In this document: positions 6,662 to 52,077 of the stretch, piece after piece
Layout: each line of letters starts with the position of its first letter
How positions within the stretch are numbered: the stretch's first letter is position 1
Source of the DNA: an uncultured Gammaproteobacteria bacterium
GTDB taxonomy: Bacteria; Pseudomonadota; Gammaproteobacteria; Enterobacterales; Psychrobiaceae
Assembly (NCBI GenBank): GCA_913060565.1
Contig: CAJXRU010000007.1
Location: 1-64,000 of the forward strand
Length of the DNA stretch: 64,000 nucleotides
Direction: 5' to 3'
Notes under the pieces: model-generated
What the model saw: only the letters and a program-made list of their open reading frames with translations
Databases searched by the model: none
What the model was told of the DNA's origin: nothing
Translations under genes and position numbers: made by a program

Positions 6662-7375
6662 ATGAAAATTGGAATTATTGGCGCAATGGAGCCAGAAGTA
6701 GCAGTACTTCGCAAACAAATTCAAGGCCTAGAAACACAAACAGTCGCCGGTATTGAGTTTTATACGGGTACTATTAATGATGTTGATGTTGTCGTTTCTA
6801 TGTCTGGTATCGGCAAAGTCGCCGCTGCGGTTTCTAGTACGCTACTTATCGAAAAGTATGCGCCGGATTGTATTATCAACACCGGTAGTGCCGGTGGTTT
6901 CGACCCAGCCCTCAATGTCGGAGACGTTGTTGTCGGCAGCGAAGTTCGTCATCACGACGCCGATTTAACAGTATTTGGCTATGAAATTGGCCAGCTTCCT
7001 AAAATGCCAGCAGCGTTTAAACCACACCCAGCATTAGCGCAAGCAGCTAATGACGCGATGAAAGCATCACAACAGAATGTACAAATTGTTGAAGGGCTTA
7101 TTGCTACTGGCGATACTTTTATGGCTGATCCAACGCGTGTTGAACAAGTACGCGCTAACTTTCCAAGCATGCAAGCGTGTGAAATGGAAGCTGCAGCCAT
7201 CGCGCAAACTTGCCATCTGTTTAATGTGCCCTTTGTTGTGATTCGTTCATTGTCAGACATCGCAGGTAAGCAAAGCGAACTAAGCTTTGACGAATACTTA
7301 GTAACAGCAGCGCAGAACTCTGCTGATATGGTCGTTGCTATGTTGCCGCTATGTAACAAGTCAGATTTAAATTAA
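6662..7375 (+). CDS. mtnN: 5'-methylthioadenosine/S-adenosylhomocysteine nucleosidase
   Basis: Cytoplasmic MTAN (Pfs) that irreversibly removes adenine from methylthioadenosine, S-adenosylhomocysteine and 5'-deoxyadenosine, the by-products of polyamine synthesis, methylation and radical SAM reactions. Seen: N-terminal [10 protein letters not shown] with the conserved catalytic Glu12, the SGIGKVAAA motif, and the C-terminal EMEAAAIAQ and RSLSDIA segments carrying the substrate-binding Glu and catalytic Asp. At 237 residues it has family length. It heads a tight operon with cbiB and a hydrolase. Its presence makes the MTA phosphorylase homologue at 42.4 kb look redundant for ordinary MTA salvage. 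Confidence 0.96.
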
Positions 7376-38446: not shown

Positions 38447-39850
38447 ATGATTTTACCTGTGATTATGGCGGGCGGTAATGGTTCACGATTATGGCCTTTA
38501 TCACGCCAGTTGTTTCCGAAACAGTTTTTGAATTTGCATGGTGATAGCACCATGTTACAAAACACTGTTGCACGATTAGACGGTATAGACCATCAACCAT
38601 CACTCATAATCTGCAACGAAGAACATCGATTCGTCGTTGCAGAACAACTACGCAGCGCACAACTTGAACATGGCCAAATTTTACTAGAACCAGTTGGACG
38701 TAACACTGCGCCAGCAATTGCCTTAGCGGCATTTAATGCAATTAACCAAGGGCAAGACCCTCTGCTCTTAGTGCTTGCAGCTGATCATGTTATTCAAAAC
38801 ACGTCAGCGTTTATTGATGCAGTGCAACACGCGCAGGAGCTCGCTTCACACAATAAACTAGTTACCTTTGGCATAAAGCCGACAGCCCCTGAAACTGGCT
38901 ATGGTTATATCAAAGCTAGCGAATCTAATACGCTCTTTGCACAAGTAGAGCAATTTGTTGAAAAACCTGATTTGGCAACGGCACAAGATTATTTAATTCA
39001 AGGGAACTACTTTTGGAATAGTGGCATGTTTATATTCAAGGCGAGCGTATTCTTGGAACAATTAAGACAACACCGCCCGGACATTTACAATGCTTGTCAA
39101 AGTGCCATGAACAATACCACCAGCGATTTAGATTTTATTAGAATTGATAAAACAGCATTTGAGTTATGTCCAGACGACTCGATTGATTACGCGGTGATGG
39201 AAAAAACATCGCATGCGATGGTTGTCCCTATGGATGCCAATTGGAGCGACATTGGTAGCTGGTCAGCACTATGGGAAATAGAAGACAAAGACGATAATGG
39301 CAATGTCAGCCATGGCGATACAATAAGTGTTGGTACAACCAATAGTTACATCAATGCGCAAGACAAATTAGTGACAACAGTAGGTTTAGACAATGTTGTT
39401 ATTGTTGAAACTAAAGACGCCATTCTAGTTGCTGACAAATCAGAGGTTCAGCAAGTCAAAGACATCGTTAACGTCCTAAAAACCGAAAAGCGTAGCGAAG
39501 TGTCTGAGCATAGGGAAGTCTATCGACCGTGGGGGAAATACGATTCTCTTGATAATGGTCAACGCTTTAAGGTCAAACGCATCACAGTAAAGCCTGGTGC
39601 ACGTTTATCGACGCAAATGCATCATCATAGGGCTGAGCATTGGATAGTTGTTACTGGTACGGCAAAGGTGGTTAAAGATAAAGAAGAAGTCTTTTTAACC
39701 GAAAACCAGTCGACCTATATTCCTGTTGGCAGTGTTCACTCGTTAGAAAATCCCGGCATGGTAGATTTAGAACTGATTGAAGTGCAATCTGGTGGTTACT
39801 TAGGTGAAGACGACATTGTCCGTTTCGATGATAAATACGGGCGCGATTAA
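38447..39850 (+). CDS. manC: Mannose-1-phosphate guanylyltransferase / mannose-6-phosphate isomerase
   Basis: Bifunctional 467-residue enzyme of GDP-mannose synthesis. The N-terminal nucleotidyltransferase domain carries [20 protein letters not shown], the signature of GDP-mannose pyrophosphorylases, plus [14 protein letters not shown]. The C-terminal cupin domain ([36 protein letters not shown]) is the type II phosphomannose isomerase. It is two bases from manB, so both are translated from one message. GDP-mannose may feed the glycosyltransferases of the neighbouring leftward operon or a surface polysaccharide. Confidence 0.95.
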
Positions 39851-39852
39851 CA

Positions 39853-41247
39853 ATGGCGATGGCTTGTTTTAAGACCTATGATATTCGTGGCCGTTTAGGT
39901 GAAGAAATTAATGATGATATTGCGTATCGAATCGGCCGTGCATTTGGCTTGGTCACGGCCGCTAAATCAGTAGTTATTGGTGGTGACGCTCGTGCAACAA
40001 GTCCATCATTGACTGCAGCTCTCGCTAACGGGTTACAAGACAGCGGTGTTAATGTTTTTGATTTAGGACTTGCAGGTACTGAAGAAATTTACTTCGCGAC
40101 ATCTAATCTCAACATGGATGGCGGAATTGTTGTTACAGCCTCTCACAATCCCATTGATTACAATGGTATGAAGCTGGTGGGAAAAAATAGCAAACCAATA
40201 TCTCGCTCTAGTGGCCTTAATGACATTGAAAAGTTAGTAGAAACCCAGCCGTGGCTGTCAGATCCTTTGCCAGCTTCTCGAGGCGAATATCAACGCCAAT
40301 CTAATTTAAATGAATATATCGAACATTTAATGGGGTATATTACCCTTTCAAATATCAAACCATTAAAGATAGTTGTTAATGCTGGAAATGGCGCGGCAGG
40401 CCATGTCATTGACGCAATAGAAGCACACTTTCAAACATCAAATTTGCCCGTTACGTTTATTAAAATTCATCATCACCCTGATCCACAATTCCCACATGGC
40501 ATCCCAAACCCATTACTTGTTGAAAACCGAGAATCGACGCGAAATGCGGTGATAAAACATAAGGCTGACTTAGGCATTGCGTGGGACGGTGATTTTGATC
40601 GCTGTTTTCTATTTGACGAAAACGGCGAATTTATTGAAGGTTATTATATTGTGGGCTTGCTAGCTCAAGCGTTTCTTGAAAAAGAAAACGGTGCAAAAAT
40701 AATCCATGATCCTCGTTTAACTTGGAACACTATTGAACTCGTTAAAGAATCTGGTGGCCAAGCGATTCAATGCCAAACAGGCCACGCCTTCATCAAAGAA
40801 CGTATGCGCCAAGAAGATGCAGTTTATGGTGGCGAAATGTCTGCTCACCATTATTTTAGAAATTTCTTCTATTGTGACTCAGGCATGATTCCTTGGCTGT
40901 TAATCATCGAGTTATTATCAAAACAGAAACGCTCACTGTCACAAGTTGTTGCTGGTCGACAACAACGCTATCCAACATCTGGCGAAATAAATCTACGAAT
41001 AGCAAATCCTACTTTAGTGATTGATGCCGTAGAAAATCACTTTATCGCCACGTCAAAAACTGTGGATTACACCGACGGTTTATCGATGGAGTTTGATGAC
41101 AAAAATACACGTTGGCGATTCAATTTGCGATGTTCAAACACCGAAGCCTTGGTAAGGCTAAACGTTGAAGCTCAAGCAAATAAAGCGCTGATGCATGATA
41201 AAACCCTACTAATACTAAGCTTACTGCGCAGCTCTCCTAAACTATAA
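39853..41247 (+). CDS. manB: Phosphomannomutase
   Basis: 464-residue alpha-D-phosphohexomutase converting mannose-6-phosphate to mannose-1-phosphate, the substrate of ManC. Seen: phosphoserine loop [13 protein letters not shown], metal-binding [11 protein letters not shown], sugar-specificity [18 protein letters not shown], and a C-terminal phosphate-binding [14 protein letters not shown]. The AHH/FRNF pattern fits the phosphomannomutase (CpsG/ManB) branch. Directly follows manC, giving a two-gene GDP-mannose operon. Confidence 0.95.
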
Positions 41248-41395: not shown

Positions 41396-42448
41396 ATGAC
41401 ACCACAATTAGTTCAGAATATTCAACATCGGCGCGAGGTTATGCGCGCGTTGTTATTTATTATCTGCTTAGGTGGTATTAGTTTCTTTACTATCAATGTG
41501 TTTCGTGAAGTTTATTTCCTTGCCTTTCTAGAGTTAGCTTATAGTATTTACGCCATTGCGCTGTTGAGAATCATCTCTAAAACAGACAATTTTCAGCGCT
41601 GGGTTATTGCTTTTCTCATCCCCCTTTATACACTGATTTTGTACGCGCTATATTTGCCTGAAACCTCAAAATCAATGTTTGTTTGGATCCTTGCCTTCCC
41701 TATTGTTTCCTACTTATTGTTAGGTAAAACCGCCGGTTTTTTAGTATCCATTTTATTCCTTATTACCGCATTAATTATTTACCATGTTAAGTTTTTAACC
41801 ATTGGTGAATCGGTAAATATAGCCGAGTCACTTAACGTTATTTTTAGCTCTGCATTAATGATTTCATTTGCGCATGTTTACGAAAAAAATCGTGAAAGTA
41901 ATGAGGTGAGATTGCTCGAATTAGCAGGTACGGATAGTCTAACCGGCGTGCCAAATCGCTTGAAGCTTTACGAAAGTTATCGCCAGTGGCAGAGAAAAAA
42001 TCAGGACAAGCAAAGCACAATGTCGGTTGCTTTAATCGACCTTGATCATTTTAAAAAAATCAACGATCAATACGGCCATAGCGCTGGCGATGAAGCATTG
42101 CGGCATGTTGCAGGCTTTATTCAAAAGCAAATGCCTCAAGGTGCTTTATTAGCAAGAATAGGCGGTGAAGAGTTTACACTGCAACTTACTAGCGAGATAG
42201 ATCAGAGCTGTAGTTTTCTGGATAAGCTACGGCGTGAATTAAAAGAAACTCCATTAATGCATGAAGGCAAGGTAATTACCATTACTTTCAGCGCCGGAAT
42301 TGCAACCTATGGAGAAGATGGCACAAGCCTAGATGCTTTACTGGCTTGTGCTGACAAACGTTTATATATCGCTAAACGCCAAGGGCGTAATCAGGTGTGT
42401 TGCGACCGTAATCACGCTGAAAGTACGTTAAATAAAGAACTTTGCTGA
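41396..42448 (+). CDS. Membrane diguanylate cyclase (GGDEF)
   Basis: 350 residues: an N-terminal membrane region of about five to six helices (residues 20-165), then a GGDEF domain (about 175-340) starting at GTDSLTGVPNRLKL. The active-site motif is GGEEF (ARIGGEEFTLQL), compatible with activity, and DLDHFKKINDQYGHSAGD supplies the metal-binding Asp. It should make cyclic di-GMP. GGAAGG precedes the ATG. Its 3' end overlaps the 3' end of the oppositely oriented phosphorylase gene by 37 bases. Confidence 0.92.
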   Translation: MTPQLVQNIQHRREVMRALLFIICLGGISFFTINVFREVYFLAFLELAYSIYAIALLRIISKTDNFQRWVIAFLIPLYTLILYALYLPETSKSMFVWILAFPIVSYLLLGKTAGFLVSILFLITALIIYHVKFLTIGESVNIAESLNVIFSSALMISFAHVYEKNRESNEVRLLELAGTDSLTGVPNRLKLYESYRQWQRKNQDKQSTMSVALIDLDHFKKINDQYGHSAGDEALRHVAGFIQKQMPQGALLARIGGEEFTLQLTSEIDQSCSFLDKLRRELKETPLMHEGKVITITFSAGIATYGEDGTSLDALLACADKRLYIAKRQGRNQVCCDRNHAESTLNKELC

Positions 42449-43260
42449 GCATCCATCGCGTCAATTGGCGTCAGTACTGAGCTGGCAAGCAGATGATTAC
42501 AACCACTTTTGCATTGCGCGTCTTGCCCTTTAATATAAGCGGCTAATACTGCTTTTGCCTTTTCTAAGCTTTTTCCATAGCGGCTAATGACTTGATCTAC
42601 TGTCACATGCTCACTTGGATCATCTTGCCAACAATCATAATCCGTTGCGATACCTATGGTGCAATAACAAATTTGTGCTTCACGGGCTAAAAAGACTTCT
42701 GGTACATTAGTCATTCCCACCAAATCAGCCTGTACAGCGTTTTTAAGGAACAAACTCTCTGCTCTTGTACCAAGTCTTGGGCCATCGACACAGGCATAAG
42801 TTTTGTTGCGATGAACGTCGATATCAATAGTGCTAGCTGCATCGCTAATTTTATCGGCGAGTGCACGACAAGTTGGCTCTGCCGTTGAAACATGCGCAAC
42901 TAAGCCGTTGCCAAAGAATGTTTTTTCACGTGGTGATTTTACAAAGTCAAAATATTGATCAGCGATAGCGAGATCGCCGGGCTGTACTTCTTGTTGTAGG
43001 CTGCCTACCGCTGACAATCCGATAATTTGGTTTACGCCAAGTGACTTTAGTGCCCATATATTGGCGCGGTAATTTACCTCTGATGGCAATAATCCGTGAT
43101 TGTTGCCATGACGTGGTAAAAATAAGATTTCTTTACCTAAGTACTCACCACGTACAATCGCAGCAGATGGGCTGCCAAAAGGCGTTTCAACATCGTGCGC
43201 TTCAATAACCGTTAAACCATCGATACTGTAAATTCCTGTACCGCCAATAACCGCTAACAT
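42412..43260 (-). CDS. Methylthioadenosine-phosphorylase-family nucleoside phosphorylase of the arsenosugar operon
   Basis: 282-residue purine nucleoside phosphorylase of the MTAP branch. Seen: IGGTGIYS at the start, FLPRHGNNHGLLPSEVNYRAN (phosphate/ribose site), a middle block with a Met-Thr pair preceding VPEVFLAREA, and ATDYDCW, whose two Asp residues recognise the adenine base in MTAP. It would cleave 5'-substituted 5'-deoxyadenosines by phosphorolysis. The genome already has MtnN, and this gene overlaps arsC by seven bases at the end of an arsenic operon. I therefore infer that it acts on dimethylarsinoyl-deoxyadenosine, giving the arsenosugar ribose-1-phosphate; plain MTA or methylthioinosine phosphorolysis remains possible. 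Confidence 0.85.
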   Translation of the reverse strand: MLAVIGGTGIYSIDGLTVIEAHDVETPFGSPSAAIVRGEYLGKEILFLPRHGNNHGLLPSEVNYRANIWALKSLGVNQIIGLSAVGSLQQEVQPGDLAIADQYFDFVKSPREKTFFGNGLVAHVSTAEPTCRALADKISDAASTIDIDVHRNKTYACVDGPRLGTRAESLFLKNAVQADLVGMTNVPEVFLAREAQICYCTIGIATDYDCWQDDPSEHVTVDQVISRYGKSLEKAKAVLAAYIKGQDAQCKSGCNHLLASSVLTPIDAMDAQQSSLFNVLSA

Positions 43261-43691
43261 AAACTTTCCTTATTGATTTGTGCTGGAAGTGAGGTGATCC
43301 AATGCTTAATTTCATCACGAACACTACGGTAATAGCCTAACGCTTCTTCAGCGGACTTAGCCTCTTTTGCTAATTTAGGTGGATCATCAAACTGATGCAT
43401 AATGACACTCGTTTTCGCGGGAAATGTTGGACAATTACTGGCGGCATGCTCACACACAGCGACCACATAATCAAATTCTTGAGACTCAAATTCATTCAGT
43501 GTTTGTGATTGATGATTGCTGATATCAACACCGACTTCTTGCATGACTTGCACCGCCGATGGATTTAAACCGTGGGATTCAATGCCTGCGGAGTAACTCA
43601 TAAACTCTTCACTGAGCAATGACTCGGCAAAGCCATGAGCCATTTGGCTACGACATGAATTACCTGTACATAAAAATAGAATAGATTTCAT
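43254..43691 (-). CDS. arsC: Thioredoxin-type arsenate reductase
   Basis: 145 residues of the low-molecular-weight phosphatase fold. The P-loop FLCTGNSCRSQMA carries the nucleophile and second Cys, and VAVCEHAASNC supplies the redox pair with the six-residue spacing of the staphylococcal, thioredoxin-coupled ArsC. A conserved FDDP follows. It reduces arsenate to arsenite. ATG 43691, with GAGGAAACA directly before it, is chosen; the longer frame from 43730 has no ribosome binding site. It lies seven bases after the radical SAM gene and overlaps the phosphorylase gene, so arsenate reduction is built into this operon. Confidence 0.93.
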   Translation of the reverse strand: MKSILFLCTGNSCRSQMAHGFAESLLSEEFMSYSAGIESHGLNPSAVQVMQEVGVDISNHQSQTLNEFESQEFDYVVAVCEHAASNCPTFPAKTSVIMHQFDDPPKLAKEAKSAEEALGYYRSVRDEIKHWITSLPAQINKESLC

Positions 43692-43698
43692 TGTTTCC

Positions 43699-44631
43699 TC
43701 ACATTTCACTGCAACTAGCACCCATAGCAAAACAGCTATAGCATCGGTGATGTTTCAAATTGATTGTTTTTTTCATACTGTTCGCCAAGTTAGTTGCCAG
43801 AAAATAATCTTCGTCATCGTCAACTAAAGTGCAGGCGTACACTTGCATTTGATCATCTTTTTTAATGATCATCTTTGAATTAGCGCACATGTAATTTTCA
43901 CGCTGCTGCTGTGTTTGATATTTAGTCATACAGCCAGTAGTAATATGAGGAACATCAGCAATAGAGCCTGGCGCTAAAAAGTCTGGAAATGCCACCATGT
44001 TCATGTCACCCGGTAGCCCATTAAGAGAGAATAAATCACGATACTGTTGTTCGACTTGGTCGCGATCCTCGCCGTCAGCCATATGACGAGCGAGAGAAAT
44101 ATTAAAGCCATGATTGTGAAGCAATCGCATTCCAATAAACGCTTTGGCAAAGTTACCACTGCCGCGCCCAACATCGTGAACTTGCTCGTCAGGTGAATCG
44201 ATACTCACGCGAAATGCTACGGGATACTGGTTCTTAGCTTGTAGTTCAAGTAAAGAATCAAGGCGCTTTACTAACGGCTCGGTACCATTAGTTAATACCA
44301 AACAAGGTCTAAATTGTGATGCATAATCAAGAATTTTAACGATATCTTTGGCTAAAAAGGGTTCGCCGCCAGTAAACGAAAACTGTTCAACGCCCATCGT
44401 TAACGCTTCATCAATAAAGGGCTTAACCTCTTCAAATTTAGGCGTTAATAAACGCTTATCTGACGGGCTTGAACCTTCTAAGCAAAAATCACATTCAAGA
44501 TTGCATTTAGTTCCCGTGTGAAACCAAAGCTCTTTAAGTGAGTGAGCATCAATATAGCCACGAGGGTCACCTAAGGGCGTAAAGTCCCAATTATGTTGAC
44601 GTTCATCGGCTTTGGAGATCGCAGAATTCAT
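43699..44631 (-). CDS. Radical SAM enzyme with C-terminal Cys cluster, putative arsenosugar synthase
   Basis: 310 residues. The cluster motif is CNLECDFC (CxxxCxxC) near residue 38, followed by SFTGGEPFL and the radical SAM barrel. Six further Cys lie in the last 90 residues (GCMTKY, YMCANS, YACTL and RCYSCFAMGASC), a SPASM/twitch-like pattern suggesting one auxiliary 4Fe-4S cluster. It is coupled to arsM by a TAATG overlap. Position suggests the ArsS role, adding the 5'-deoxyadenosyl group of SAM to dimethylated arsenic, but the motif spacing differs from the Cys-rich ArsS family as I know it, so it may be an analogue. Function is inferred. Confidence 0.8.
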   Translation of the reverse strand: MNSAISKADERQHNWDFTPLGDPRGYIDAHSLKELWFHTGTKCNLECDFCLEGSSPSDKRLLTPKFEEVKPFIDEALTMGVEQFSFTGGEPFLAKDIVKILDYASQFRPCLVLTNGTEPLVKRLDSLLELQAKNQYPVAFRVSIDSPDEQVHDVGRGSGNFAKAFIGMRLLHNHGFNISLARHMADGEDRDQVEQQYRDLFSLNGLPGDMNMVAFPDFLAPGSIADVPHITTGCMTKYQTQQQRENYMCANSKMIIKKDDQMQVYACTLVDDDEDYFLATNLANSMKKTINLKHHRCYSCFAMGASCSEM

Positions 44632-45707
44632 TAGCAACAGCTCGATTTAGCCGCTGGTGCTGGTGCACAACAACCACTTGATTGTTCAGTCTTCGTTATT
44701 TTAAAGTCAAACTCATGTTGTTTAACTGAAAATATGCCTTGATGCTTGTCAAAATCGCCTGAGAATTCGAAATGTTTAGCAAAACGAGATTGCTTTAACG
44801 TGCGCCATGTATTGCCGCTCACAGGCACTGCTTTACCCTTGGAGAAGGTCGTGTTTTCATCAAAATTCCATTGGCATTCGTGCTCTTCAATAGTGCCAAG
44901 GTAGGTAACCTGTTGACCATAATCTTGGGCGCTTTTTTCTAAGTCTTGCGCCTTAAATAGACGATACGTTGCCGACGTGAAACGGATATCACCAAGCTTT
45001 TTAGCTAACTCATCGTTGTCGATAGTGATAACACGACTGCTCACTAAACGTGGCTCAATAAATCCAACTTCTTTAGCAAGATTTTCAAAGTCATTCCAAT
45101 ACAAGGCGCCACTTAAGCACTCGCCATAAAGTAACGGATCGTCTTTCAAATGAGCTGGCACACGTTTATCGGCATAAACGTCTGAGAAATAGATTTCGCC
45201 ACCTGCTTTTAGAATACGAAAAACTTCCTTTAATACCGCATGCTTGTCTGGGCTAAGATTGATAACACAGTTTGATATCACCACATCCATGCTGTTGTCG
45301 CTAATATTTAGCTCATCAAGCTTCTCAATATAGCCTTTTAAAAAGTGAGTATTAGGTTGATGATAGCCAAATGTTTCACGATGATATTCAACGTGTTTAT
45401 TAGCAACGGTCAGTTGCTCGTCGGTCATATCAACGCCAGTAACGCTGCCTTGCTCACCAACCATTTGAGCAATGGCGTAACAGTCACGACCAGCGCCGCA
45501 ACCTAAATCTAGTACATTACAATCGGTTAATAACTCAGGTGTCACTAACCCACAGCCGTAATAACGAGCCATCACTTCATCATGAATATTCGATAAAATG
45601 CCTTTAACACGTGGCGATAAATCATCGTCGGTGCAACACGCATTGGTTTGCAAATCTTCTGATCCTGTAAGTACATTACCGTAATAGTCTTTCACTACGT
45701 TATGCAT
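44631..45707 (-). CDS. arsM: Arsenite S-adenosylmethionine methyltransferase
   Basis: 358-residue class I methyltransferase. SAM motif VLDLGCGAGRDCYAIAQMVG near residue 65, then GVDMTDEQL and the ArsM signature VISNCVINLSPDK. Candidate As(III)-binding Cys residues occur at NACC near the start, in DLGCGAGRDC, in SNCVINL and in YGECLSGALY. The C-terminal tail is rich in Cys (SSGCCAPAPAAKSSCC), as often in ArsM. It converts arsenite stepwise to mono- and dimethyl-arsenicals. AGGAG precedes the ATG, which overlaps the upstream transferase gene by eight bases. Confidence 0.95.
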   Translation of the reverse strand: MHNVVKDYYGNVLTGSEDLQTNACCTDDDLSPRVKGILSNIHDEVMARYYGCGLVTPELLTDCNVLDLGCGAGRDCYAIAQMVGEQGSVTGVDMTDEQLTVANKHVEYHRETFGYHQPNTHFLKGYIEKLDELNISDNSMDVVISNCVINLSPDKHAVLKEVFRILKAGGEIYFSDVYADKRVPAHLKDDPLLYGECLSGALYWNDFENLAKEVGFIEPRLVSSRVITIDNDELAKKLGDIRFTSATYRLFKAQDLEKSAQDYGQQVTYLGTIEEHECQWNFDENTTFSKGKAVPVSGNTWRTLKQSRFAKHFEFSGDFDKHQGIFSVKQHEFDFKITKTEQSSGCCAPAPAAKSSCC

Positions 45708-46437
45708 GGTTGATAACTCCTGAAGAAATAAATAATTGGTTAAGGGTTGTTAATAGTTTTTTTCGTGCAGGGCGCTGATCATTTTTTAAATGGTTAAGCA
45801 GTTTTTTAATATCTGCAACATAATCGATATCATAGCCGGGAAGCATGTAATGAACATCCAGCTCGCTATTTTCACAAGCTTGCGCCAATGCTTGGGATAA
45901 GTTTTCCGTGCTCCAAGGTAAATCAATGATATTGGGCCACGGAGACTTATTTGCCATAATGACAACGCCGCCATCATCAGCGTGGCTCAAGACAATGTCG
46001 TATTTATTAAGAGCACGTGCAGCTTCAGAAAAATGCAAAGGCGTTAACATTGGGGCATCAGTACCTATGGTAATAATTTTTTCGTGGCCAAATACTCTCA
46101 ACACATGATCAACATAATTGAGTCGTTGCCCTAAATTTCCAGACATGCCTGAGGGAAGTTGCGTCATAATTTGCGCATTTTCGTTCAGTGATTGTGCCCA
46201 TTCAACATCACTTTCATCACTACAAGCAATAACGACTGGCCCGCGCCACGCATGACTGTCTTCAATAGCACAGTCTAGTAATGCCTGAGCAACAATTAGT
46301 GTTTTCTCCGCTGAAATCGCTTCTGCAATGCGTTGCTTGCCCTGATGTAATTTAGGTCGTTTACAAAACAACACTAATGTTGGCCACTGGTAAGGGTCAA
46401 TGATGTCATTAGCAGATGTTTGTAATTGATAAGGCAT
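45700..46437 (-). CDS. DUF2064 / TIGR04282-type glycosyltransferase linked to arsenosugar loci
   Basis: 245-residue nucleotide-sugar-transferase-like protein. TLVLFCKRPKLHQGKQRIAE matches the N-terminal signature of the DUF2064 family, and ITIGTDAPMLTPLHFSEAARAL carries its conserved T/S-D-x-P site; a late DIDYVADIKKLL is also typical. This family (TIGR04282, arsenosugar-associated transferase) is known to occur beside radical SAM enzymes and ArsM, though its reaction is not established. ATG 46437 with GAGAG upstream is preferred to a longer start at 46494. Confidence 0.85.
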   Translation of the reverse strand: MPYQLQTSANDIIDPYQWPTLVLFCKRPKLHQGKQRIAEAISAEKTLIVAQALLDCAIEDSHAWRGPVVIACSDESDVEWAQSLNENAQIMTQLPSGMSGNLGQRLNYVDHVLRVFGHEKIITIGTDAPMLTPLHFSEAARALNKYDIVLSHADDGGVVIMANKSPWPNIIDLPWSTENLSQALAQACENSELDVHYMLPGYDIDYVADIKKLLNHLKNDQRPARKKLLTTLNQLFISSGVINHA

Positions 46438-46515
46438 TAGCACTCTCGAATAGATAACAATTAAGTAAAACGCTGGCCATCTAATGATGACCAAAACAGC
46501 TTGGATATATAGACC

Positions 46516-47346
46516 CTAGTTCGGCTGATTTAATTTCCAGTTATAATCAAAATCTATATCGCCTTTGAAATTACGCAGCTTTTCTTGTTTTTTAGGTGTT
46601 GCGTATTGGCTCAAGTGACGTAATAATTCCAATTCATTTTCACCAAAATCTACTGAAAACCAATTGTAAATATTCGATAAAATCAGCTTGTTTTCATTAA
46701 AACGCATGCCTTTATCTTGATTAATAAAACGAAAGGCTCCTGACTCTAATTGTTGCTCAATATTCTTACCTGTTAAGGGAATAGCCGGTAAATCTGGGCA
46801 ACCAATACTGGCACAGTTGATGACATAATGAATGCGTTTGTCTTTAAAAATTCCTCGTAAAATCCCATGCTCAATTTGATTCAACGTAAGTGGCGTATTG
46901 GCAATTTCTATTAGCGTCATATTCCACGGCCCAGTGATCCCATCACCAATATTTTTAATGGAATTTAACGGGTAATGTTTCAATATCAAATCAATAGTAA
47001 GAGCGTTATATAAATTGCCCCAATAAGCGATTTGCTCTAGTTTGTTATAGTCTCGAGGATCTATTGTTTGAAGATTCGCTAAATAATTTTCAAGCTTAGA
47101 TTTATCAGTGTCAGACACTCCTGCATAATCGAATTCTCGCACACCAGAGCTTTGGTTTTCACTGAGATAATCACCGAGGATCTCTCCCCATAATCGATGG
47201 TCAATTACACGCTTATTATTCTCATTACTGACTTGCCAAGACACTATCGGGTTAGGGCTAATAGCCTGATAAAGAGAAAAAACTTTTACGGCTAGTGCAG
47301 CACTAACCAACACCGCGACAAAAATAACTACCTTTAACTTATTCAT
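46516..47346 (-). CDS. DUF547-domain protein, membrane-anchored
   Basis: 276 residues with an N-terminal hydrophobic signal anchor (about residues 5-25) and a DUF547 domain: LEQIAYWGNLYNALTIDLIL (conserved W-x-N-x-Y-N), the H-Y-V-I-N-C-A-S-x-G-C-P-D-L motif with two Cys, and a late Y-N-W-F-S-x-D-F. The family has a transglutaminase-like look, but its reaction is unknown; it recurs near rSAM/arsenosugar-type loci. ATGAATAA overlaps the stop of the upstream GT2 gene by eight bases, so the two are translationally coupled. Probably periplasmic. Confidence 0.85.
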   Translation of the reverse strand: MNKLKVVIFVAVLVSAALAVKVFSLYQAISPNPIVSWQVSNENNKRVIDHRLWGEILGDYLSENQSSGVREFDYAGVSDTDKSKLENYLANLQTIDPRDYNKLEQIAYWGNLYNALTIDLILKHYPLNSIKNIGDGITGPWNMTLIEIANTPLTLNQIEHGILRGIFKDKRIHYVINCASIGCPDLPAIPLTGKNIEQQLESGAFRFINQDKGMRFNENKLILSNIYNWFSVDFGENELELLRHLSQYATPKKQEKLRNFKGDIDFDYNWKLNQPN

Positions 47347-48116: not shown

Positions 48117-49505
48117 TTAAGCTTTTACATCACTAACGATGAGTGATTTATGTTGCTTATGTCGATAAACATAATGAACGAGTGCAATCGCCGCTAATAC
48201 TTGAACAATACCCACTAACCAAACAGGCCAAACCGCTGGCTGCCACAACCGTTCGCTTAAAAAGCCGTTAAGTACTTCGTAAGTCAATGGCATCAATAAC
48301 GTCCAAGCCACTAAATATCTATTTGGTGCTAACGCGAGTAAGGGAACGAGCGGCATTAGGTACCAAGGAAATATCACCGGGCTAATCAGCAGTGGAATCG
48401 CCAGTGCTAATTGAGCACAACTAAATACCAACGTTTGCTTTGTAAGTATTTCGCCGCGCTGTAGCCATAACCAACCAGCAATTGCTAAAGAGACAACGCT
48501 AGCGAAACAGAGCATCACAATGATTATTTGATAACCTGAAAAAACTTGATCCAAAGCGACAAATAACGGCGCCGCAAATCGCCATTTTTCAAAAAACACA
48601 CCGATACTACCCACTGGATGTAAGCCAAGACTTAAGGTTAATCCGTAAACGGTAACCACACTAATTAGCACACCAATCACTAATTTAATTGCCAGCTTTA
48701 TATTAGGCATCGTAAATAACAAAGGTAACACCAACATAATAGGCACAACTTTAATCACGGTACCTAAACCTATAACAATCCCCGTTAAAAATACCTGCTG
48801 TCGCTGCCATAAATAAATGGCCGAGACTACCGCCAAGCAAGAAATGGCGTCAATATGCAAACCAATATTTGCTTCAAGAATGAGTAGTGGTGAAAAAGCT
48901 ATTAGTGATAAATGTTGCAGCTTTCCAGCATGGGCTAATACTCTAGCGCCTATAAACAACGTACCTAAACTGGCGACTAGAATGATTAGCTTCCATACTA
49001 ATAATGCATGTTCATGACCAAAAGACGCCGCGGCAGAAAACAGCGCAAGCGCTAATGGCGGATACAAGGTTACATATTTCGCATGCTCGCTTGGTGGTTG
49101 CCACTGTTCTCGTAAACTTTGTAATTGCGGCGCATCATGACTCACTCGATAGGGGTCAAACCCTTCAATGGCGATCCGCCCATCAAACAAATAGCGATCG
49201 ACATCATTTGACGCATAAGACCCAGCATCGATTAGCAATATTCTTGCTAATACTGCTACTAACAACAGCCATTTAATATCTTTGAAACCTATCGCTTCTG
49301 GAGCACTTTTCCATGCAAGCAACATTGCAATGCCCATCAATGAGTATTGCACCATCGTGTAATAGCCAATATAGAGTGCTGGTTTTACTTGTGTAACAGC
49401 AGCTAAATAGTAACTGGCCAAGGCTAATAGCAAGACGCTAACGGCACAGCTATAAAACAATGCGCTGTTAGGCGTGCGCGCAAAAAGCCAAGACCAAGAA
49501 ATCAT
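48117..49505 (-). CDS. Polytopic GT-C glycosyltransferase, MptB/GT87-like
   Basis: 462 residues with about twelve hydrophobic helices. The first external loop holds the acidic GT-C signature NDVDRYLFDGRIAIEGFDPYR, recalling polyprenyl-phosphomannose-dependent mannosyltransferases, and a following YPPLALALF block is also typical. It should transfer a sugar from a polyprenyl-phosphate carrier on the outer face of the inner membrane. It starts two bases beyond the stop of the preceding gene in the operon, so coupling is certain. Donor and acceptor are inferred, not seen. Confidence 0.82.
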   Translation of the reverse strand: MISWSWLFARTPNSALFYSCAVSVLLLALASYYLAAVTQVKPALYIGYYTMVQYSLMGIAMLLAWKSAPEAIGFKDIKWLLLVAVLARILLIDAGSYASNDVDRYLFDGRIAIEGFDPYRVSHDAPQLQSLREQWQPPSEHAKYVTLYPPLALALFSAAASFGHEHALLVWKLIILVASLGTLFIGARVLAHAGKLQHLSLIAFSPLLILEANIGLHIDAISCLAVVSAIYLWQRQQVFLTGIVIGLGTVIKVVPIMLVLPLLFTMPNIKLAIKLVIGVLISVVTVYGLTLSLGLHPVGSIGVFFEKWRFAAPLFVALDQVFSGYQIIIVMLCFASVVSLAIAGWLWLQRGEILTKQTLVFSCAQLALAIPLLISPVIFPWYLMPLVPLLALAPNRYLVAWTLLMPLTYEVLNGFLSERLWQPAVWPVWLVGIVQVLAAIALVHYVYRHKQHKSLIVSDVKA

Positions 49506-49507
49506 CG

Positions 49508-51001
49508 CTATTTTGATAGCTGATAATGGTGATAAAAGCTATGTAACGCCGCCGTGACAAAACCAACGGTTAATAACAATAAAAATGGCAACATAAACCA
49601 ATGTTGATGATTAATGGCCCACACCAGTACCACTGCATAAACTCCAGCAATAACAAACTCGAAAATAGCGCCTTTCGGGGCAACCGCCTTGTAGCGTTTT
49701 ATTGACTCAGGCACAAGACTCGCTGCTTTTTCAGGTGTCACATTATCTTGTAACTCGCCAGTTTTAGGTGTGCGCACAAATTCGCTTTCTCGTCCTAATA
49801 ACGCTTCAAGACCAGCTTTTGAATTATTGATAGCAAGCTGAATACCAAGCATGACTAAATTCGGCACCTTAACAAGTGCACGACTTTTATTGCGCTTGAG
49901 GGCAATTTGTCCCCAATAGAGGTAAACAAGATGGCCACCCGAAGACAAAATAAGCAGTGGAATATCTACCCACCAAATATTTAAAAAGTCATATTTATCA
50001 CGTAACAATAAACTTGGCACCAAGAAGAATAATGTGTCTATTAACATGACGAAATAAGCGAGATTGTTCGATAGGTGAAACGTTGACTCAATTTTTTTAG
50101 TAAATGGTATTTTTGCCCGCCAAACGGTCGGCAACATCTTAAGCATGACCTGAACACCACCTTTTGCCCAACGATATTGTTGGGTTTTGAAAGCATTCAT
50201 ATCAGCAGGCAACTCACCGGGGCAAGGAATGTGATTCAAATAAATCATTTTCCAACCTTTAAGTTGAGCACGGTAACTCAAATCGAGATCTTCCGTCAGC
50301 GTATCAGCACTCCAATGTCCTGCATCGATAATAGCCGACGTTCGCCAAATACCAGCGGTGCCATTGAAGTTAAATAACATTCCGGTCGCGCTGCGCACTT
50401 GCTGCTCAAGACTAAAGTGCGCATCTAACATAATCGCCTGCGTTTTTGTCAGTAAACTACTTCGACGATTCAAATGTTCCCAGCGCAATTGCACCATCGC
50501 CACATCTTTTTGGGTGAAATAATGAATACTATCAAGCAAGGTATTAGGATGCGGAATAAAATCTGCGTCAAAAATAGCAATGAATTCCCCCGTTGCAGTA
50601 TCCATTGCGTCTTTAAGCGCACCAGCTTTAAACCCTTGTCGATTAACACGTTGTACATGCTCAATATCAATACCTTGCTGTTGGTAAAACTTAACTCGCT
50701 CAGCAATTAACTCACAGGTATCGTCATTAGAATCATCAACTATTTGAATTTGTAAACGGTCATGTGGATATTCCAATTTCACAATCGAATCAACAATCCG
50801 TTGCGCTACCATACGTTCGTTATACAGAGGAATTTGCACTGTTACTCGAGGTAACTGTTCAAATAATTTAGGCTGCTTCGGCTGAAATTTACGATAGCGA
50901 AACCAGCGAAATACCATCGATAAACGATGTAAACCAAACAAACATAAAATCAAAAGCAATACAAAATGTATTGCTATGATTGACATACTTAACACCGACA
51001 T
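49508..51001 (-). CDS. Cellulose-synthase-like membrane GT2 glycosyltransferase
   Basis: 497 residues. N-terminal membrane helix, cytoplasmic GT-A domain with VTVQIPLYNERMVAQRIVDS, DDSNDDT, FDADFIPHP, TEDLDLSYR and QQYRW (the D, DxD, TED and QxxRW motifs of processive-type GT2), then three to four C-terminal helices. The family includes glucosylceramide-synthase-like and beta-glucan/mannan enzymes, so a lipid or sugar acceptor at the membrane is likely. All catalytic motifs are present. Second gene of the arsenic operon, 17 bases after the outer-membrane-type protein. Confidence 0.9.
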   Translation of the reverse strand: MSVLSMSIIAIHFVLLLILCLFGLHRLSMVFRWFRYRKFQPKQPKLFEQLPRVTVQIPLYNERMVAQRIVDSIVKLEYPHDRLQIQIVDDSNDDTCELIAERVKFYQQQGIDIEHVQRVNRQGFKAGALKDAMDTATGEFIAIFDADFIPHPNTLLDSIHYFTQKDVAMVQLRWEHLNRRSSLLTKTQAIMLDAHFSLEQQVRSATGMLFNFNGTAGIWRTSAIIDAGHWSADTLTEDLDLSYRAQLKGWKMIYLNHIPCPGELPADMNAFKTQQYRWAKGGVQVMLKMLPTVWRAKIPFTKKIESTFHLSNNLAYFVMLIDTLFFLVPSLLLRDKYDFLNIWWVDIPLLILSSGGHLVYLYWGQIALKRNKSRALVKVPNLVMLGIQLAINNSKAGLEALLGRESEFVRTPKTGELQDNVTPEKAASLVPESIKRYKAVAPKGAIFEFVIAGVYAVVLVWAINHQHWFMLPFLLLLTVGFVTAALHSFYHHYQLSK

Positions 51002-51018
51002 TACGTTAACAACCTATT

Positions 51019-51870
51019 TTAAAAAACTTTGGTAAAACCAATCTCAAACCTATCACCTTTTAGAATATTGTCGCCATAGATTTCGTTGGTGTAAGTGAAT
51101 TCGACGCCATATCCCTTTAACGAACTGTTCTTATCAAAACTCCAGCCAGCAGTTAATTCTAATTTTCCAGAATCAAATTCAAATGGATTGGATAAATTTC
51201 CCGTGTTAACAGTCGTGGCATCAGAGTTTTCAGCACTTAAGATACCGTCTAATTTCGTTCTAAAATACAAATTTTCATTGGCACTAAAACCATATTCTAA
51301 AAGATAACGATACTCATCAGAAGGATCGCCTTGGCGCAATCGATAACCAAATTCAGCACCGAAATAACCATACTCATTGAGGCTCTTTCCTATTAATACT
51401 TTAGCTTCATAGTCCGTTTGATCGTTGCCCAAACCATCTTCAGCATCATATAAAAACGGAGATTTAATTAAAAATGAGGTTGAAACAACAAATGGATCCG
51501 CTTGCCATTGATACTTCAAGCCAATTTCGGCATCGCCAAAACCACTAGCACTAGTCTTGCCAAGTGCCGTATCATTTTGATCATATGATTGATTTAACAA
51601 TGAGCCATATAGAGAAAACTTTTTCCCTAATCCGTATTCTGCATACAACGACACACTATTGCTTTCAAAATCAACGAAGGTTGGATTCGAGCCATGGTAA
51701 TCTTCTGCTTTATAGGTGGCAAAACCTAATTTCGTATAACCAGATCCTTTCTTACCGACCCAGGCGCCAGCATTGGCATTAGCTGTTAATAACATTGCTG
51801 ACACAGCAATCGCTGATGCCGAAATCTTAACCATTGAACCTTGAATATTTCCTAACGTTGAATTTTTCAT
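51019..51870 (-). CDS. Predicted outer-membrane beta-barrel protein
   Basis: About 283 residues with a long N-terminal signal peptide (cleavage near TANANA-GAW) and a body of alternating amphipathic strands rich in aromatic and glycine residues (SVSLYAEYGLGKKFSLYGSLL, GYFGAEFGYRLRQGD, LKGYGVEFTYTNEIYG), ending in the aromatic GFTKVF typical of barrel C-termini. First gene of the arsenic/glycosyltransferase operon. It may be a channel or structural surface protein for the product; the role is unknown. ATG 51870 is preferred to GTG 51879. Confidence 0.75.
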   Translation of the reverse strand: MKNSTLGNIQGSMVKISASAIAVSAMLLTANANAGAWVGKKGSGYTKLGFATYKAEDYHGSNPTFVDFESNSVSLYAEYGLGKKFSLYGSLLNQSYDQNDTALGKTSASGFGDAEIGLKYQWQADPFVVSTSFLIKSPFLYDAEDGLGNDQTDYEAKVLIGKSLNEYGYFGAEFGYRLRQGDPSDEYRYLLEYGFSANENLYFRTKLDGILSAENSDATTVNTGNLSNPFEFDSGKLELTAGWSFDKNSSLKGYGVEFTYTNEIYGDNILKGDRFEIGFTKVF

Positions 51871-52077
51871 TGTGCTCACTCGAGTTTATTTTTAGTAGTT
51901 GAATTGTTTCAAACTAGATTTTTGGGATCAAAAACACAAGCGTATAAATGCGTCTTAACTGAAACGTTAATGTTTTGTGATAAATCTGTTAGAAATTACG
52001 TAACGCTCAATAAGACCTAAGTAACGTGAGATTTATTTCAGAAATTTCGGAGTTTTCTTAAAAATTTTAAAAATCAA
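51871..52077 (-). promoter_or_regulatory. Probable promoter region of the arsenosugar operon
   Basis: About 200 AT-rich bases between the start of the outer-membrane-type gene and the stop of the upstream EAL-protein gene. The operon promoter should lie here since no other gap of this size occurs before its last gene. I see no ArsR-type operator with confidence and no unambiguous -35/-10 pair; a terminator for the upstream gene is not evident either, so some read-through is possible. Confidence 0.4.

Follow-up and report, generated by a model that had tools for sequence, protein, structure and literature searches.

The window analysed here, the whole 64,000-nucleotide stretch of DNA, carries an arsenic-related operon that ends in a gene for a protein of the MTAP (MTA phosphorylase) family. 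This arrangement raises the question of which nucleoside such an enzyme would cleave in an arsenic pathway. Arsenosugars rank among the major arsenic compounds in marine organisms, and to our knowledge there is seemingly no enzyme assigned to adenine removal or sugar linkage after ArsM and ArsS have acted. Gene neighbourhoods, phylogeny and residue conservation together suggest that the MTAP homologue is probably a dedicated nucleoside phosphorylase of arsenosugar biosynthesis, which would convert 5'-deoxy-5'-dimethylarsinoyl-adenosine to adenine and an arsenosugar 1-phosphate.

Table 1. Features of the window considered in this study, with positions counted from its first nucleotide.
Feature	Coordinates	Strand	Basis
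MtnN (MTA/SAH nucleosidase), far from the operon	6662..7375	+	PF01048, 183.1 bits
MTAP-family phosphorylase, 282 aa, final gene of the operon	42412..43260	-	TIGR01694, clade, synteny, residues, fold
ArsC-like arsenate reductase, thioredoxin type, 145 aa, ATG at 43691	43254..43691	-	TIGR02691, 143.2 bits (below cut-off of 174.3)
Radical SAM protein 'rSAM2', proposed functional equivalent of ArsS	43699..44631	-	PF04055, 68 bits; MTAP and ArsM as conserved neighbours
ArsM-like arsenite methyltransferase, 358 aa	44631..45707	-	PRK11873, 181 bits (below cut-off of 263)
TIGR04282/DUF2064 protein, labelled arsenosugar glycosyltransferase	45700..46440	-	TIGR04282, 106 bits (below cut-off of 134)
DUF547 protein, recurrent in arsenosugar loci	46516..47346	-	PF04784, 75.6 bits; kept in the larger cluster and in L229
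GT2 glycosyltransferase, AglJ/dolichyl-phosphate hexose transferase-like, weak TIGR04283	47339..48091	-	Conserved order
GT87-like membrane glycosyltransferase	48117..49505	-	PF09594, 23.6 bits (just under cut-off of 25); conserved order
GT2 cellulose-synthase-like glycosyltransferase	49508..51001	-	Profile matches; conserved order
286-aa protein that looks by eye like an outer-membrane beta-barrel; opens the conserved block	51019..51879	-	Order kept in about nine loci

The initial annotation named an MTAP homologue at 42412-43260 without giving a strand, and family models and the predicted fold confirm that assignment. The 282-codon open reading frame occupies its interval exactly on the minus strand, and no open frame exists on the plus strand over 42412-43260. 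The encoded protein scores 282.3 bits against the TIGR01694 MTAP model (curated cut-off 274.85) and 136.5 bits against PF01048. Its nearest solved structures by sequence are all MTAPs, namely RsfP (4GLF, 240 bits) and the Sulfolobus, Aeropyrum and human enzymes, and only MTAPs are among the top Foldseek matches listed for its AlphaFold model. This model is a monomer of moderate confidence (pLDDT 81), from which no pocket geometry was drawn. Identity as an MTIP was ruled out by a score of 212.3 bits against the PRK09136 MTIP model (cut-off 223) and by an invariant pair of aspartates, D220 and D222 in human numbering.

Reading along the minus strand, the operon encodes a beta-barrel-like protein, GT2, GT87-like and GT2 glycosyltransferases, DUF547, TIGR04282-like/DUF2064, ArsM-like, rSAM and ArsC-like proteins, and lastly the MTAP. 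The neighbours that the initial annotation had implied are present: a thioredoxin-type ArsC-like protein, an rSAM, an ArsM-like methyltransferase and a TIGR04282-like protein. The MTAP start codon overlaps the end of the arsC-like gene, as had been claimed; the overlap measures 7 nt, with AAGGAA directly upstream. Inspection of the junctions indicates that the genes upstream of it are coupled in a similar manner; for example, the rSAM2 ATG overlaps the stop codon of the ArsM gene (ATGA-type coupling). The ArsM-like protein carries the cysteine motifs CC, SNCVINL and GECLSGAL, and a Pfam search with the 286-aa protein gave no match. On the opposite strand near this operon (38447-41247) lie genes that, judged by translated sequence only, resemble those for mannose-1-phosphate guanylyltransferase and phosphomannomutase.

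A canonical arsenosugar operon can be recognized by matches to TIGR04167 (ArsS), TIGR04282 and TIGR04283, and the window genes fall below all three cut-offs. The initial annotation had expected an rSAM that yields an arsenical nucleoside; the operon does contain an rSAM gene, but its product is not a canonical ArsS (44 bits against TIGR04167, cut-off 300). Similarly, the GT2 protein reaches only 35 bits against TIGR04283 (cut-off 182). Because the rSAM, ArsM-like and TIGR04282-like proteins all score under the curated arsenosugar or ArsM cut-offs, we regard the operon as a divergent version that is assigned to arsenosugars through its relatives, and whose product is presumed.

In the pathway that we propose, ArsM would generate dimethylarsenic, and the rSAM would join this group to the 5'-deoxyadenosyl moiety of SAM to give 5'-deoxy-5'-dimethylarsinoyl-adenosine. 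Canonical ArsS is known to adenosylate arsenic (PMC12159101), and we infer the product of rSAM2 from its neighbouring genes and from its mutual exclusion with TIGR04167 proteins in 36 genomes. The MTAP homologue would then cleave off adenine with phosphate, yielding 5-deoxy-5-dimethylarsinoyl-ribose 1-phosphate. This compound would probably be activated as a nucleotide sugar by the TIGR04282 protein, and glycosyltransferases would attach the activated arsenosugar to an aglycone. We infer the substrate, the order of the steps and the NDP-sugar step alike. A precedent exists in hopanoid biosynthesis, where a deoxyadenosyl group is added by the rSAM HpnH and then loses its adenine to HpnG, a putative phosphorylase (PMC12583986).

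The association between this type of MTAP and rSAM2 was evaluated by searches in both directions. MTAP-family matches were found in 15 of 149 genomes of the order. All nine genomes whose MTAP is at least 60% identical to that of the window have rSAM2 adjoining, and none of the six whose MTAP is at most 43% identical has rSAM2 within 1.5 kb. At the level of the class, all four matches above 50% identity are rSAM-linked. It is these searches starting from MTAP that constitute the unbiased evidence, as many rows of the trees described below were reached through rSAM. A reciprocal scan for rSAM2, using one genome per species, yielded 80 loci, 33 of which have an MTAP in the vicinity; several gene orders occur among them. 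Taxa of the MTAP-bearing loci include Alteromonadales, Oceanospirillales, Vibrionales, Alphaproteobacteria and Steroidobacteraceae, with carriers such as Colwellia, Shewanella-like bacteria, Paraglaciecola, Neptuniibacter, Motiliproteus, Enterovibrio, Endozoicomonas and Emcibacter; the Steroidobacteraceae genes are divergently oriented. These loci often continue into a TIGR04283-type glycosyltransferase, and TIGR04282-like and glycosyltransferase genes accompany rSAM2 in most loci. In terms of the arsenosugar operon components, linkage of the clade to an arsenosugar-type rSAM was thus found, and we consider the link between the MTAP clade and the arsenosugar pathway to be strong.

Several other features of these loci were observed. 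The rSAM2 family matches no NCBIfam model of its own above cut-off; it occurs with ArsM in Proteobacteria, and is found also in Verrucomicrobia/Kiritimatiellae and Hydrogenedentota (loci L019-L098). PHO4-type phosphate transporters recur near arsenosugar loci (L041, 14190-15380; L227, 1448-2587, from sequence only; L229, 6844-7956), and an ECF-like sigma factor lies near the arsenosugar locus L043 (3301-3954).

The overlap with arsC, which the initial annotation had taken as informative, was not borne out as the conserved link. ArsC is present in some homologous loci and absent from others, which rules it out as the defining partner of MTAP, and in several loci without ArsC the rSAM gene is followed directly by MTAP. 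Because ArsC is missing from some linked loci, rSAM is the constant partner. This distinction bears on the idea that the enzyme uses inorganic arsenate, such that nucleoside arsenolysis would yield a sugar 1-arsenate that is then reduced to arsenite. The gene overlap would suit such a role, as would the ability of purine nucleoside phosphorylase to promote the reduction of arsenate in vitro (PMC12608789). However, the operon already holds a dedicated ArsC-like reductase, and MTAP remains with rSAM where ArsC is missing, so that we judge arsenolysis to be highly improbable.

No MTAP was found nearby in the other 47 of the 80 rSAM2 loci, some of which are incomplete. In 14 of the 35 genomes with MTAP-less rSAM2 loci that were searched, no MTAP-family gene was detected at E<=1e-20, and because of this the adenine step would appear to be done otherwise or not always to be needed. 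Where MTAP is missing, another enzyme, perhaps MtnN, must act, or the pathway ends differently. A phmmer search of the MTAP-less loci with an MtnN query, in effect covering MtnN-like proteins, revealed no such PF01048 nucleosidase nearby. Many Amphritea and Marinobacterium loci (such as L061, L050, L053 and L056) have the arrangement DUF2064-rSAM-GT without MTAP, and those of their genomes that were searched likewise gave no MTAP-family gene at the same threshold.

Members of the same MTAP clade are also found beside canonical ArsS. In two loci (L154 and L155), clade MTAPs lie 21 and 31 bp from TIGR04167 ArsS genes (446 and 426 bits). A Cupriavidus plasmid (L227) carries consecutive genes for ArsM, ArsS (465.7 bits), TIGR04283 (277.7), TIGR04282 (201.5) and a clade MTAP (276.8), all of which exceed curated cut-offs except that for ArsM. 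MTAPs of a second type, resembling RsfP, adjoin ArsS in L181 and L182; others are plasmid-borne in Burkholderia and Acinetobacter, next to arsenosugar genes (L228 and L229). The Acinetobacter portensis plasmid (L229; NZ_CP096121.1, pJNE5-X3_NDM-1), whose name indicates NDM-1, holds a cluster of MTAP, ArsM, TIGR04282, TIGR04283 and DUF547 genes. A genome placed in the genus of the window (G111) lacks the window-type MTAP-rSAM pair; its ArsS gene lies at a distance of 6.6 kb from an MTAP of the RsfP type. Linkage of MTAP to canonical ArsS is nevertheless occasional: an MTAP-family gene occurs in 66 of 79 genomes with canonical ArsS but adjoins ArsS in only two, though this is above the approximately 0.1 expected from a rough chance estimate (66 MTAP genes, a ~4-kb window and ~3-Mb genomes). 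Among the 36 genomes tested, rSAM2 and canonical ArsS never occur together; the two are mutually exclusive, as if interchangeable.

Aminocarboxypropyl transfer to arsenic by an rSAM frees MTA. The MTAP might therefore be an MTA phosphorylase that serves an aminocarboxypropyl-transferring rSAM2, with the operon leading to an arsinothricin-like compound. An rSAM that moves 3-amino-3-carboxypropyl to arsenic is known (PMC12159101), and the low score of the window rSAM against the ArsS model would be compatible with such a function. However, the same MTAP clade stands beside adenosylating canonical ArsS, including in a full TIGR04282/TIGR04283 operon, and the two rSAM families exclude each other as interchangeable enzymes would. 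TIGR04282-like and glycosyltransferase genes, moreover, keep company with rSAM2 in most loci and in one case a TIGR04282-like domain is fused to it (L077). We therefore view an arsinothricin-type product as improbable, and favour adenosylation followed by adenine removal.

Phylogeny had been named in the initial annotation as a check on this assignment, and the ars-linked MTAPs do form a strongly supported clade. In a first IQ-TREE analysis of 80 MTAPs, which includes four pairs of identical rows (apparently one genome reached twice in each case), 37 rSAM2-linked and two ArsS-linked MTAPs constitute one clade with support of 100/100. A second tree, with rows added, duplicates removed, and without the fragmentary L079 and L172, whose branch is very long, recovers the same clade with 37 rows and support of 100/98. 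Nearly all members of this window-type clade, which spans several proteobacterial groups, are beside an arsenosugar-type rSAM. One member (L221, genome G782) has no rSAM nearby on its 13.9-kb contig, and rSAM2 is present in its genome. The ArsS-linked RsfP-type MTAPs form a separate clade (100/95), and the MTAP of a Kiritimatiellae locus (L084) is placed elsewhere than either. Because both of these lie outside the window clade, MTAP was recruited beside arsenosugar-type rSAMs at least three times.

Residues in the active site were compared with the 15 listed for human MTAP (PMC5738077), using a human sequence whose numbering was checked against 1CB0. In the clade, 13 of these 15 are kept or conservatively changed. 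R60, H61, A94, H137, M196, T197, T219, D220 and D222 are invariant in 39 of 39 members; T93 is replaced by Ser, the residue that most bacterial MTAPs have at this position, while V233, V236 and L237 are conservative. The initial annotation had stated that the adenine-recognizing site is kept. This holds for the aspartate pair and for the ATDYDCW motif (residues 205-211 of the window protein), but all 39 members have Leu and Gly in place of F177 and S178 in that site. Further clade-specific changes are M140T, F113Y, T239R and L240Y/F. Presumed MTIP rows of the tree have N/A at the aspartate pair and Glu at S178, whereas the window clade has D/D. These comparisons suggest that adenine selectivity conferred by the Asp pair is kept, while the clade departs from housekeeping MTAPs in and around the base site. 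The changes agree with an altered substrate but do not identify it, and no single change in the 5' pocket proves arsenic specificity.

The initial annotation had also argued that a second enzyme for MTA would be surplus, given that MtnN is encoded in the window, and MtnN was indeed found there, supplying the usual pathway for MTA. Use of the 1-phosphate formed from MTA or 5'-deoxyadenosine requires the isomerase MtnA (PMC10986504, PMC8102628). No MtnA was found in the window genome, and it is missing from 33 of 34 genomes with an rSAM-linked MTAP. All five genomes of the order with an ordinary MTAP have an MtnA match, four of them over cut-off. A methionine-salvage MtnP role was rejected on the absence of MtnA from those 33 genomes. 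The window genome encodes three PF01048 members, namely MtnN, the window MTAP and a third that is DeoD-like by sequence, and MtnN is likewise present in most genomes with a linked MTAP.

It could still be supposed that an ordinary MTA phosphorylase, acting in generic adenine salvage, came to lie in the operon by chance, or that the enzyme has a dual use. Its TIGR01694 score exceeds the cut-off, and six genomes (G372, G256, G569, G532, G740 and G748), several of them small, have no PF01048 protein besides the linked MTAP. Because of these cases, MTA may also be a substrate, and dual use is possible in a few small genomes. As a general account, however, this explanation is improbable: the linkage holds across the clade and survives rearrangements, MtnN accompanies the linked MTAP in most genomes while MtnA is absent, and the changes to the base site and pocket are specific to the clade.

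Alternatively, the MTAP could clear 5'-deoxyadenosine released by the rSAM and so relieve product inhibition, acting as a helper with no biosynthetic step. MtnP/MTAP does cleave 5'-deoxyadenosine, which inhibits radical SAM enzymes (PMC8102628), and the tight adjacency of MTAP and rSAM also fits this role. We nonetheless consider it unlikely. The window genome and typical relatives encode MtnN, which acts on 5'-deoxyadenosine too (PMC10986504). The isomerase MtnA, through which 5-deoxyribose 1-phosphate would have to be used, is absent. In addition, the deoxyadenosyl group stays on the product of an adenosylation, little free 5'-deoxyadenosine is therefore expected, and the adjoining predicted nucleotidyltransferase suggests that the 1-phosphate is retained.

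This last point derives from the structure predicted for the TIGR04282 protein (pLDDT 90), for which the best Foldseek match is 3CGX, with CofC-like guanylyl/cytidylyltransferases, KdsB and IspD also matched. The protein is thus predicted to have a CofC-like nucleotidyltransferase fold, and the family name 'glycosyltransferase' may be wrong. If this enzyme couples a nucleotide to a phosphate, a 1-phosphate product would be fitting, and the recruitment of a phosphorylase despite the presence of the hydrolase MtnN would be explained. DUF2064 is fused to rSAM in L077 (9323-10927) and to ArsM in L021 (8154-9989) and L041 (8193-9977), and these fusions suggest that the proteins belong to one pathway. 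In L081 (3-1097), DUF2064 is fused to a TIGR04283-type glycosyltransferase. The full combination, in which the MTAP clade is dedicated to an arsenical nucleoside, the TIGR04282 protein is a nucleotidyltransferase, an NDP-arsenosugar is the donor and a further rSAM family stands in for ArsS among many marine proteobacteria, is advanced tentatively, as slightly less apt to hold than to fail.

A literature search, for which subscription papers on ArsS were beyond reach, found no paper that joins a phosphorylase to the arsenosugar pathway. Our analysis names candidates for two steps after ArsM and ArsS, together with a wide set of operons, and predicts that many ars-linked genes annotated as mtnP are misnamed.

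A known system close to the window operon is the ArsM/ArsS pathway (TIGR04167, TIGR04282 and TIGR04283), with which it shares ArsM, rSAM and TIGR04282-like genes in one operon, and some of whose canonical operons include the same MTAP clade. The window rSAM differs in belonging to another family, and we know of no enzyme in the published ArsM/ArsS set that is assigned to adenine removal. The MTIPs (PRK09136) are homologous phosphorylases common in the class, but they are set apart by the model score and by the identity of the Asp pair. MTAP/MtnP itself (TIGR01694; human 1CB0/1CG6, archaeal 2A8Y/1WTA and metagenomic RsfP 4GLF) resembles the window protein in family score, fold, phosphate site, catalytic Asp pair and adenine specificity determinants. 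Unlike these enzymes, the window clade has invariant F177L and S178G replacements along with M140T, F113Y, T239R and L240Y/F, and it resides in arsenosugar operons of genomes that nearly all lack MtnA. HpnG, with its partner HpnH, is comparable in logic, since there too an rSAM adds a deoxyadenosyl group and a phosphorylase-type enzyme strips adenine, albeit from a triterpenoid rather than an arsenical. If our proposal is correct, the arsenosugar pathway would be the second case, after HpnH/HpnG, in which radical adenosylation is followed by adenine removal to attach a ribose unit.
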